Of a stretch of DNA of 5,172 nucleotides, positions 3,326 to 5,141 are shown in pieces. The DNA comes from an uncultured Clostridia bacterium (GTDB lineage Bacteria; Bacillota_A; Clostridia; Christensenellales; Aristaeellaceae), in NCBI GenBank assembly GCA_947165745.1, contig CAMVBO010000157.1, forward strand, positions 1-5,172. The letters run 5' to 3'. Numbering within the stretch: position 1 is the stretch's first letter; every line of letters starts with the position of its first letter. The notes below the pieces were generated by a model that saw only the letters and a program-made list of their open reading frames with translations, was not told the DNA's origin and did not search any database. Position numbers and translations under genes: made by a program.

Positions 3326-3355
3326 TAGACAAAATCGAAAGAGCGGGTATATAAT
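3326..3355 (+). promoter_or_regulatory. Promoter of the lipoprotein array
   Basis: TAGACA (3326-3331), 18 bp, TATAAT (3350-3355): a perfect -10 and a -35 with one mismatch. It is the only good promoter seen between glmS and the first lipoprotein. Transcription would begin near 3362, giving an unusually long leader of about 98 nt. Confidence 0.75.
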
Positions 3356-3459: not shown

Positions 3460-3795
3460 ATGAAAAAGATCGTAGCACTGACCCTGGTTCTGGTTATGGT
3501 TCTGGCGCTGTGCGCCTGCGGCGGCAGCAAGACTGCGGCCGGCACCTGGAAGCTCACCGGCATGACCCAGGACGGCCAGGATTATTCCCAGTACCTTTCT
3601 ATGCTTGGCATGGAGATCACCATGGTTCTCAACGACGACGGCACCGGCACCATGGAGGCCATGGGCGAAAAGGTCGATGTGACCTGGGATGCCAACGGCA
3701 TCACCAGCCAGGGCGAGACCATCCCCTACACCCTCGATGGCGACAAGCTGATCATGGCGCAGGACGGCGCCGAGATGATCTTCACCCGTCAGTAA
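3460..3795 (+). CDS. Small lipoprotein, tandem family member 1
   Basis: The product is 111 residues of unknown function. Residues 1-20 form a lipoprotein signal peptide: MKKI, a hydrophobic LVLVMVLAL core, then L17-C18-A19-C20. C20 fits the lipobox (small residue at -1) and is the likely lipidated cysteine, which would anchor the protein to the outer face of the membrane. The mature domain (about 90 residues) is rich in predicted beta pattern: GTWKLTGM near 28-35, GQDY, DDGTGTM, VTWD, IPYTLDGDKL, and the end MIFTRQ. The repeated G-x-W start and DGTG turn recall small lipocalin-like barrels, but that is a guess from pattern. AGGAGG is 8 nt before the ATG. It is the first of four paralogues and is preceded by a promoter and folded leader. 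It pairs best with member 3 in the leader peptide and with member 2 at the C-terminus. Confidence 0.9.
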   Translation: MKKIVALTLVLVMVLALCACGGSKTAAGTWKLTGMTQDGQDYSQYLSMLGMEITMVLNDDGTGTMEAMGEKVDVTWDANGITSQGETIPYTLDGDKLIMAQDGAEMIFTRQ

Positions 3796-3866
3796 GCCCT
3801 TCTGCCCGGTACGGATTCTTTCTGGCGGCCGGAAGGCAGTCAGAATAAAGGGAAAGAGGAAAGCGT

Positions 3867-4223
3867 ATGAAAAAGATCGCAGCACTGACTCTGGTTCTGG
3901 TTATGGTTCTGGCGCTGTGCGCCTGCGGCGGCGGCAGCGACAGCAAGAATCCCGCTGTCGGCACCTGGAAGATCTCCGGCCTCTATGAGAGCGGCGAGGA
4001 CTACACCGCCTACATGTCCGCCCTTGGCTTTGACGGCCTGGTGATCGTTCTGAATGAGGACGGCACCGGCACCATGACCATGGATGGACAAACCGCCGAC
4101 ATCAAGTGGGAAGACGGCAAGTTCATCAACCCGGACACCAACGAGACCCTGCCCATCACCCTTGACGGCGACAAGCTGACCATCAAGCAGGACACCGTGG
4201 AGCTGGTGTTCGCCCGTCAGTAA
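3867..4223 (+). CDS. Small lipoprotein, tandem family member 2
   Basis: The product is 118 residues, the longest of the four, function unknown. The signal peptide and lipobox (LCAC, C20) match member 1, with V5 changed to A. A flexible GGGSDSKNP linker leads to AVGTWKISG. The mature domain keeps GEDY, NEDGTGTM, a lysine-tryptophan (IKWEDGK) and LPITLDGDKL, ending VFARQ like member 1. Relative to member 1 it has a short insertion before the LPITLDGDKL strand (NPDTNE region). GAGG lies 7 nt before the ATG. It is 71 bp downstream of member 1 with no strong promoter or terminator between, so the two are probably cotranscribed. The linker and GTW start are shared almost exactly with member 4, which suggests a closer duplication pair. 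Confidence 0.9.
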   Translation: MKKIAALTLVLVMVLALCACGGGSDSKNPAVGTWKISGLYESGEDYTAYMSALGFDGLVIVLNEDGTGTMTMDGQTADIKWEDGKFINPDTNETLPITLDGDKLTIKQDTVELVFARQ

Positions 4224-4244
4224 GCAGTTTCTCCGGAATAACAC

Positions 4245-4266
4245 CTGACAGCTGAATCGCTGACAG
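4245..4266 (+). repeat. Short direct repeat CTGACAG x2 upstream of member 3
   Basis: CTGACAG occurs at 4245-4251 and again at 4260-4266, 15 bp apart, in the gap between lipoproteins 2 and 3. It could be a minor regulator half-site pair or a duplication scar; chance is also plausible. Confidence 0.3.
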
Positions 4267-4292
4267 GAGAAATGAAAGAAAGAAGGTTACAT

Positions 4293-4634
4293 ATGAAAAA
4301 GATCGTAGCACTGACCCTGGTTCTGGTTATGGTTCTGGCTCTGTGCGCCTGCGGCGGCGGCAGCAAGAACGGCCCCAACGGCTCCTACAAGCTCAGCGGC
4401 ATCAAGATCGACGGGGAGGATTACTCCGACTACATCTCCATGCTGGGCTATGACAACTACACCATCACCTTCAATTCCGACGGTACCGGCAAGCTGACCG
4501 GCTCCGACGCCAACGTCTCCTTCAAGTGGGACGAGAACAACATCGACGACGGCACCGACGTGATCCCCTACACCTTCACCTCCAATTCCGTTTCCTTCGA
4601 GACCAGCGGCGTGGAGATGACCTTCACCAAGTAA
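4293..4634 (+). CDS. Small lipoprotein, tandem family member 3
   Basis: The product is 113 residues, function unknown. I place the start at 4293. It gives the same MKKIVALTL leader as the paralogues and has AGAAGG 6 nt upstream. An in-frame ATG at 4272 would add seven residues (MKERRLH) but has its purine tract only 2 nt away. The lipobox is again LCAC with C20. The mature part is the most divergent at its start (NGSYKLSG instead of GTW). It keeps GEDYSDY, SMLGYD (close to member 1 SMLGM), SDGTGKL, FKWDENN and IPYTF, ending MTFTK. The lysine-tryptophan strand resembles member 2. It is 69 bp after member 2 and is followed directly by two hairpins, the first overlapping its stop codon. Confidence 0.9.
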   Translation: MKKIVALTLVLVMVLALCACGGGSKNGPNGSYKLSGIKIDGEDYSDYISMLGYDNYTITFNSDGTGKLTGSDANVSFKWDENNIDDGTDVIPYTFTSNSVSFETSGVEMTFTK

Positions 4635-4645
4635 GCTTTGCTTAC
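4631..4645 (+). other. Small hairpin overlapping the stop of lipoprotein 3
   Basis: GTAAGC (4631-4636) and GCTTAC (4640-4645) form a 6-bp stem with a 3-nt loop that contains the TAA stop codon. It stands immediately before the stronger terminator hairpin. It is possibly part of a two-hairpin 3' end; chance is not excluded for so short a stem. Confidence 0.4.
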
Positions 4646-4651
4646 GTGCTG

Positions 4652-4683
4652 TTCCGCCCCGGTTCCCGGGGCGGAATTCTATT
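4652..4683 (+). terminator. Intrinsic terminator inside the lipoprotein array
   Basis: TTCCGCCCCGG (4652-4662) pairs perfectly with CCGGGGCGGAA (4666-4676), an 11-bp GC-rich stem with a 3-nt loop. The T-tract after it is poor (TTCTATT), so termination may be partial. It separates members 1-3 from member 4, and I see no convincing promoter between it and member 4. Partial read-through is the simplest way to express the fourth gene. Confidence 0.75.
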
Positions 4684-4741
4684 CCCTGTCCGGCCGGCGA
4701 CCGGCGTCGCTTGGCCGACGGTATGAAAAGGAGAAAAGAAT

Positions 4742-5092
4742 ATGAAAAAGATCGCAGCACTGGCCCTGGTTCTGGTCATGGTTCTGGCGCTGTGCGCCTG
4801 CGGCGGCGGCAGCGACGGCAAGAATCCCGCCGTGGGCACCTGGACGATCAAGTCCATGACCAACGGGGGAGAGACCTACAGCGTGGACGATGTTCCCACC
4901 TTGAAGGACTTTATCGTCATGGAGCTTCGCGAGGACGGCACCGGCACCATCACCTCCAGCGGCGAGACCACGCCTCTCACCTGGGACGGCAGCACCATCA
5001 CCGTGGAGGGCGACCCCGCCAGCTACAGCGTCTCCGGTGACACGCTGACGCTCAACAGCGACAGCTACACCTTCACTTTCGTCCGCAAATAA
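4742..5092 (+). CDS. Small lipoprotein, tandem family member 4
   Basis: The product is 116 residues, function unknown. The signal peptide MKKIAALALVLVMVLALCAC has the same lipobox cysteine C20, then the GGGSDGKNPAVGTW linker shared with member 2. The mature domain is the most divergent in its middle: the GEDY/SMLG segment is replaced by GETYSVDDVPTLKDF. It retains REDGTGTI, LTWDGSTI and a C-terminal strand ending FTFVRK. AGGAG is 8 nt before the ATG. It stands 107 bp after member 3, beyond a strong hairpin terminator, and is closed by its own terminator, so its expression is probably lower or separately controlled. No promoter was recognised in the gap. It is certainly a paralogue of the others; the lipocalin-like fold is only a suggestion. 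Confidence 0.9.
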   Translation: MKKIAALALVLVMVLALCACGGGSDGKNPAVGTWTIKSMTNGGETYSVDDVPTLKDFIVMELREDGTGTITSSGETTPLTWDGSTITVEGDPASYSVSGDTLTLNSDSYTFTFVRK

Positions 5093-5105: not shown

Positions 5106-5141
5106 AAAAGAGCAGGGAGCAAATCGCCCCCTGCTCTTTTT
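5106..5141 (+). terminator. Intrinsic terminator closing the lipoprotein array
   Basis: AAAAGAGCAGGG (5106-5117) pairs with CCCTGCTCTTTT (5129-5140), a 12-bp stem with an 11-nt loop. It runs into five T residues (5137-5141), with a second T-rich stretch (5150-5160) beyond. This is a textbook rho-independent terminator and ends the array transcript. The A-rich left side might also let it work on the minus strand for a gene to the right of the window. Confidence 0.92.

Follow-up and report, generated by a model that had tools for sequence, protein, structure and literature searches.

Introduction

'Gene accordions', in which tandem paralogues change in copy number by recombination between their members, have been described for staphylococci and streptococci. 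In cultured S. aureus the csa1 arrays gain and lose copies, and induction of RecA raises their amplification (PMC7360770). The tandem paralogues of S. aureus esaG and streptococcal tipC recombine via shared blocks, with changes in copy number and mosaic genes as the outcome, and in lpl a recombination block of ~130 nt has been described (PMC9484751). The mycoplasma Vpma and Vsp clusters have their signal-peptide code and 5' UTR in common, and there the switching is carried out by a site-specific recombinase (PMC2268961).

Here we describe four tandem lipoprotein genes, m1 to m4, from a ruminant-gut bacterium, lying on a 5,172-nt stretch of DNA (the window, by which we mean the whole of the stretch analysed). 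Like csa1 and lpl, they are tandem lipoprotein paralogues whose copy number differs between strains and whose members appear to recombine with one another (PMC7360770, PMC9484751). However, csa1 and lpl encode DUF576 proteins (PMC10730906), whereas the bodies here are predicted to be lipocalin-like, and the lpl block lies in the centre of the gene (PMC9484751), whereas the block here is the signal-peptide code. Gain, loss and mosaics of tandem paralogues via conserved blocks are features in common with tipC and esaG, and tipC also has a 5' block and encodes predicted lipoproteins, but these are immunity genes against T7SS toxins, with two blocks in tipC and three in esaG (PMC9484751). Vpma and Vsp likewise form gene clusters in which a conserved signal-peptide code is followed by differing mature proteins, but their conserved 5' UTRs and adjacent site-specific recombinase (PMC2268961) are not seen here. 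The array behaves like the csa1/lpl, esaG and tipC group and differs from it in block, fold and host group. Our literature search, which left most subscription journals outside its coverage, gave no study of this array among the matches listed.

Results

Four lipoprotein genes in a probable operon

On the minus strand the window carries nrdD, represented by its 5' end, and a gene for an nrdG-type activase; on the plus strand come glmS and then the four lipoprotein genes, each of which opens with a 66-nt block that we call the leader:

3460..3795, plus strand: m1, lipoprotein with a Lipocalin_4-like body (ORF, 111 aa; PF13648 23.2 bits; model pLDDT 84)
3867..4223, plus strand: m2, lipoprotein, the copy missing from the RUG502 assembly (ORF, 118 aa; PF13648 23.6 bits)
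4293..4634, plus strand: m3, lipoprotein (ORF, 113 aa; DUF5640 17.6 bits, below the cut-off of 28.5)
4742..5092, plus strand: m4, lipoprotein (ORF, 116 aa; PF13648 19.5 bits, below the cut-off; model pLDDT 85)
3460..3525, plus strand: m1 leader block (signal peptide, lipobox LCAC, two Gly), from the leader comparison
3867..3932, plus strand: m2 leader block, from the leader comparison
4293..4358, plus strand: m3 leader block, from the leader comparison
4742..4807, plus strand: m4 leader block, from the leader comparison

For m3 the ORF list gives a start at 4272; the ATG at 4293 was picked by leader alignment and, by eye, for the AGAAGG that precedes it. Bacterial lipoproteins have basic residues at the N-terminus, then a hydrophobic stretch and a lipobox ending in Cys. 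Read from sequence, m1 to m4 all conform, with MKKI...LALCAC followed by GG, and all are built alike: a leader of 20 residues that closes with LCAC, then a Gly/Ser linker, then ~90 residues of body. Behind the lipobox Cys, the window has two GGC codons in m1 (3520-3528) and three in m4 (4802-4813); in the closely related RUG502 assembly these numbers are swapped (three in m1, L001 10061-10072; two in m4, 10920-10928).

Three local elements bear on expression:

3326..3355, plus strand: promoter-like TAGACA-18-TATAAT ahead of m1 (consensus match only, 11/12)
4651..4677, plus strand: strong m3-m4 hairpin, a possible attenuator ahead of m4 (-25.3 kcal/mol, z -5.06)
5106..5140, plus strand: terminator-like hairpin with a U run 3' of m4 (-26.6 kcal/mol, z -6.46)

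With the promoter-like site ahead of m1 (the scan found two such sites against 0.7 expected) and the terminator-like hairpin 3' of m4, it is likely that the four genes are expressed as a single operon. The m3-m4 hairpin is identical in sequence in RUG502 and has no clear T run. Judged by eye, a separate start with a plausible RBS can be assigned to every copy, and the 45 nt 5' of the four starts show no likeness. The flanks of m2 and m3 are mismatched as well.

Near-identical leaders on diverged bodies

A sequence-only reading of the window had held that the leaders differ by 1 to about 4 substitutions, with one silent base between m1 and m3, while the mature domains have diverged widely and keep only the patterns G-T/S-W/Y, DGTG and a central W. 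This is an accurate description. The 66-nt leaders, compared in all six pairs of m1 to m4, show 2, 1, 3, 3, 3 and 4 differing bases, the single difference between m1 and m3 being silent (nt 48, G/T), whereas the bodies have 21-41 identical residues of 88-92 aligned; the three patterns are present in all four copies. Nor is silent divergence uniform along the genes, a comparison that the same reading had proposed: by NG86, dS between the window paralogues is 0.06-0.12 in codons 1-22 and 0.45-0.74 in the remainder, where dN is 0.48-0.84. When only codons for the same amino acid are compared, 8 of 113 comparisons differ in the leader versus 47 of 176 in the body, and a contrast as large as this arose in 51 of 10,000 shuffles of columns between leader and body. 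One repeat family (D1) takes in the leader together with the beginning of the mature part:

3853..3974, plus strand: 122-nt block, m2 copy, 91% identical to the m4 copy
4728..4849, plus strand: 122-nt block, m4 copy

Relatives and copy number

Genome contigs were scanned with one leader peptide pattern, so that array relatives with other leaders would be missed; the scan gave 137 relatives, and the best 80 of the 137 loci were kept. Among these 80, full-length matches with at least 50% identity were found only in RUG502 (locus L001), RGIG2711 (L002) and RUG12056 (L003). The dS of glmS to the window is 0.06 for L001, 0.33 for L002 and 0.30 for L003, and we have therefore placed RUG502 in the species of the window or in one very near it, and treated the other two as sister species. 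A match at E<=1e-19 was present in 6 of 102 genomes of the genus. Copies adjoining nrdG or glmS number one in G068, two in L003, three in L001, four in the window and five in L002; the single copy in G068 (locus L101) adjoins nrdG with no glmS in between, and the five of L002 (B_0 to B_4) are, by body and in order, two m1/m2-like, one m3-like and two m4-like. Among protein clusters, the five of m2 type have 1-2 contigs each and the largest of m1, m3 and m4 type have 21-82, contigs not being independent strains.

The gene 3' of the RUG502 array (L001:11375-12760) has a zinc-ribbon-like start and then an in-frame stop, beyond which a membrane stretch is followed by TPR-like repeats and a pair of m3-like barrel domains; at the corresponding place L003 has an uninterrupted zinc-ribbon/TPR-like protein (10859-11899), and L002 has no counterpart there. 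At its contig end (L002:6562-7079), L002 has repeated tracts, one frame of which gives PLRGTSPRGGSEKGP-like units.

Leader and body have different histories

Leader and body trees and dN/dS values were computed from 14 genes (four from the window, three from L001, five from L002 and two from L003), a set that excludes the more distant members, the copy in G068 and every database protein; alignment A1 holds 33 of 43 database proteins. In the body tree, m3 groups with B_2 (100/100) and m4 with B_3 and B_4 (100/100), and a clade of the seven same-species bodies is rejected (AU p 2e-5). In the leader tree it is the seven same-species leaders that fall on one side of a branch, with modest support (72/85), and AU tests reject the ortholog groupings m1+B_0+B_1 (p 0.031), W_m3+B_2 (p 0.032) and m4+B_3+B_4 (p 0.0076), two of the three values lying near 0.03 and the leader holding only about 20 informative codons. 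These groups were named from the body comparison, and the m3 group consists of window m3 (W_m3) and B_2, with the RUG502 hybrid gene described below excluded.

The leader dS to the L002 counterparts is 0.44 (m1-B_1), 0.41 (m3-B_2), 0.72 (m4-B_3) and 0.37 (m4-B_4). For the body of m3 the pattern is the reverse, with a dS of 0.16 to B_2 versus 0.46-0.71 to its paralogues. The orthologue of m1 may be B_0 or B_1, and the m1 body, at a dS of 0.47 to B_1, is hardly closer to it than to the paralogues (0.50-0.59), so that the contrast between leader and body comes from m3 and m4. Single codons tell the same species apart: codon 10 is GTT in all seven same-species leaders and GTC in all four of the Val codons found there among the seven sister leaders, and codon 14 is GTT in the same seven and GTC in three of four sister Val codons. 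Such a conflict between trees, together with species-specific silent states, is the mark of concerted evolution confined to the leader.

The paralogous leaders within L002 are not homogenised (dS 0.27-0.69), so the process is not constant across the family. Among the 24 lipoprotein-like pairs that lie within 1.5 kb of each other in the fetched loci, leaders are more than 90% identical only in the nine pairs from the window and L001; the 11 pairs in L002 and L003 reach 65-80% and the other four 42-62%. The neighbours B_0 and B_1 (L002:3590-4364) show the opposite of the window, with bodies identical at 74 of 92 residues and leaders at 70%, a pattern that fits separate exchange of leader and body. 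Four database proteins, P0010 and P0014 (m3/m1), P0032 (m4/m2) and P0041 (two m4-like forms), are apparent hybrids with switches inside the body, which could be real recombinants or assembly errors; they were kept out of the evidence because the DNA is lacking and three of the four have a longest contig below 1.4 kb.

A hybrid gene with its junction in the leader

The second gene of the RUG502 array joins the m2 upstream region and leader to an m3 body. Against the m2 upstream region and leader (71 + 66 nt) its sole mismatch is at nt 48, the 71 upstream nucleotides being identical, and against the m3 gene it mismatches only at nt 14, 24 and 153. The mismatch to m2 at nt 48 and those to m3 at nt 14 and 24 place the switch within nt 25-47 of the leader:

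3891..3913, plus strand: 23-nt identical interval of the hybrid switch, m2 side (leader nt 25-47), from the L001 comparison
4317..4339, plus strand: 23-nt identical interval of the hybrid switch, m3 side (leader nt 25-47), from the L001 comparison

L001 lacks the body of m2, the spacer between m2 and m3, and the first part of m3. One gene has apparently been lost from RUG502 through a break that falls in the leader, a direction that we infer from gene order: loss, from four genes to three, is a simpler reading than gain because the order in L002 agrees with that of the four-gene array. Copy number, which the sequence-only reading had suggested comparing between strains, thus does differ between close strains (four in the window, three in RUG502), and the hybrid junction lies inside the high-identity block that the tandem paralogues share, in one strain pair and in metagenome assemblies. 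The hybrid itself comes from one assembly, there being only one other same-species genome available; that genome is a metagenome assembly, and the window appears to be a metagenome contig. A database cluster, P0028, whose representative looks hybrid-like by eye, contains 82 contigs, but clustering at 90% would also include m3 of the window.

We think it probable that the likeness of the leaders reflects concerted evolution by recombination within the array, accompanied by change in copy number. Gene conversion or recombination through the shared 5' block had been proposed from the window sequence, and the crossover of the hybrid within that block, the conflict between leader and body trees and the species-specific silent states all speak for it. 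An unlikely alternative is that one leader spread once, and recently, onto old bodies in a few events, with no exchange continuing since. That window leaders are just 1-4 bases apart and that homogenised leaders are absent in the sister species would fit such a capture, but the RUG502 hybrid points to a leader crossover that postdates the separation of the strains. Recent capture and continuing concerted evolution differ mainly in tempo.

Constraint and codon use

Selection on codons, on mRNA structure or on the signal-peptide sequence might instead hold the leader DNA constant with no exchange between copies. The leaders are functionally constrained, codon bias is strong, and C_1 of L003 shares 20 of 22 leader residues with m1 and fits the leader pattern at three mismatches. 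Yet sister leaders stand at a dS of 0.37-0.72, as against 0.06-0.12 for the window paralogues, and 15 of 22 degenerate leader columns have a synonymous alternative in at least one sister leader. With these columns varying and a leader dS of 0.44 for m1-B_1 and 0.41 for m3-B_2, a constraint that acts on the block as DNA or RNA, which had also been suggested from the window, is not supported. The idea is largely contradicted by this silent divergence across species and leaves the RUG502 hybrid unexplained, and we regard it as quite unlikely.

In each pair of copies, 16-19 of the 18-20 leader codons that encode the same residue are identical, versus 7.9-8.7 expected from RUG502 codon use, itself a rough estimate from 89 non-overlapping ORFs of at least 250 aa in the fetched stretches, some perhaps in the wrong frame. 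The 30 fetched RUG502 stretches were chosen around leader matches and cover part of the genome; they contain 47 other lipoprotein-like ORFs, by a selection rule that admits some false ORFs, and the best leader among these is 78% identical. For 34 of the 47, those scoring at least 0.5 against the leader, 381 pairs had at least eight same-residue codons, with a mean identical share of 0.53; the best single pair, of unrelated leaders, has 10 of 11 identical, which weighs in the opposite direction. A degenerate 62-nt leader pattern, allowed up to three mismatches, matched three sites in G001 and one in G003 among 102 genus genomes, all in the array, and nearly identical leader DNA by this measure was found in none of the other 100. 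Equally identical leaders elsewhere, the outcome that would have pointed to codon bias or translation constraint, were thus not encountered, either among the 47 ORFs or in the whole-genome pattern scan. Codon bias or translation constraint is not supported as the cause, in view of the excess over the codon-use expectation, the synonymous variation in the sister species and the absence of equally identical leaders outside the array in these scans.

Four distant ORFs of the same genome also match the family profile. Their leaders are 57-73% identical, and they are not supported as the source of the array leader; because these family members have distinct leaders, close linkage seems to matter for leader likeness. 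One of the four (C24) is without the lipobox Cys; a second (C5:71634) shares its contig with the array, ~57 kb away.

The bodies

PF13648 (Lipocalin_4) has a gathering score of 22.4 bits, which m1 and m2 exceed and m4 does not reach; m3 has no PF13648 entry at E<=1. For m1 and m4, lipocalin-like barrels are predicted, and the modelled barrels align to solved lipocalin-like proteins: the best fold matches are the same for m4 as for m1, and the nearest known lipocalin-like lipoproteins are Bacteroides 4qrl and S. pneumoniae SP_0198 (3ge2/5cyb), at 12-22% identity. Other small barrels, fatty-acid-binding and designed, score within ~1 Z unit, so that the exact family is not settled. A sequence search of the PDB gave one weak match (E 0.011) over residues 1-37, mostly leader. 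The fold matches of m1 and those of m4 both include a protease inhibitor of T. forsythia, potempin E. Pfam and NCBIfam contain models of the staphylococcal tandem lipoproteins, and in neither did the Lpl/DUF576 profile match m1 to m4 at E<=1. LXG toxins were matched in none of four genomes (G001, G002, G003 and G068), the B. subtilis control being positive, and the reading of the array as a string of T7SS immunity genes is not supported.

The three bodies that the window shares with RUG502 are identical at 88 of 89, 90 of 90 (m3) and 92 of 92 residues, and therefore give no indication that they are diversifying within the species. Across species the bodies clearly evolve fast, with a dN/dS of ~0.55 for m1, 1.06 for m3 and 0.88 and 0.82 for m4, as against 0.12 for glmS, although these are NG86 values with biased codons, in which dS may be underestimated. 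Diversifying selection on the exposed domain, another of the early suggestions, accordingly finds nothing in its favour within the species, and the values between species (0.55-1.06) fit relaxed constraint as well.

It is highly improbable that the array is an antigenic or phase-variable surface repertoire of the mycoplasma Vsp/Vpma type with the leader as its switch site, a swappable repertoire in the phase-variation sense, since the likeness in layout, a conserved signal-peptide code before diverged mature parts (PMC2268961), is set against one apparent operon in which every copy has its own start and plausible RBS, 5' flanks that are unlike each other by eye, no recombinase among nine chosen long L001 ORFs (Pfam E<=1e-5; two ORFs had no match), a sole reported inverted repeat of at least 18 nt (21 nt at 81%) and shared bodies that are identical or one residue apart between strains.

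Discussion

Concerted evolution of the leaders probably came about as follows. The four genes are paralogues of long standing that share one apparent operon, and their products are predicted to be small beta-barrel proteins, lipocalin-like and lipid-anchored. The m3 and m4 bodies had diverged prior to the split of the sister species. Since the leader encodes a part presumably kept alike by export and lipidation, it would be left as the longest DNA homology between copies, and recombination would therefore tend to fall there. Exchange, whether by unequal crossover, conversion or deletion between direct repeats, would then homogenise the leader, re-pair bodies with other upstream regions and alter copy number. 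In the sequences themselves we see homogeneous leaders, conflicting leader and body histories, one hybrid with its crossover in the leader and one to five copies in relatives; RecA-type homologous exchange would be the agent. A role in the envelope, with the barrels binding a ligand or partner, may be suggested with low confidence.

It is tempting to speculate further, although we consider it an unlikely possibility, that signal-peptide code serves as a general recombination anchor across which leader, body and upstream modules are re-paired, and that the array is perhaps an orphan repertoire of inhibitor or immunity proteins against envelope-acting enzymes. If this were true, strains would combine barrels and levels of production in different ways.

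In this case, which can be checked, it is the code for the signal peptide that evolves in concert as a unit, and not the mature protein. The array also carries two cautions for tandem lipoproteins, where leader similarity tells little of how old the bodies are or what they do, and whole-gene trees blend two histories. The accordion mechanism described for staphylococci and streptococci (PMC7360770, PMC9484751) would, with concerted evolution of the leaders, extend to ruminant-gut Clostridia and to another fold.
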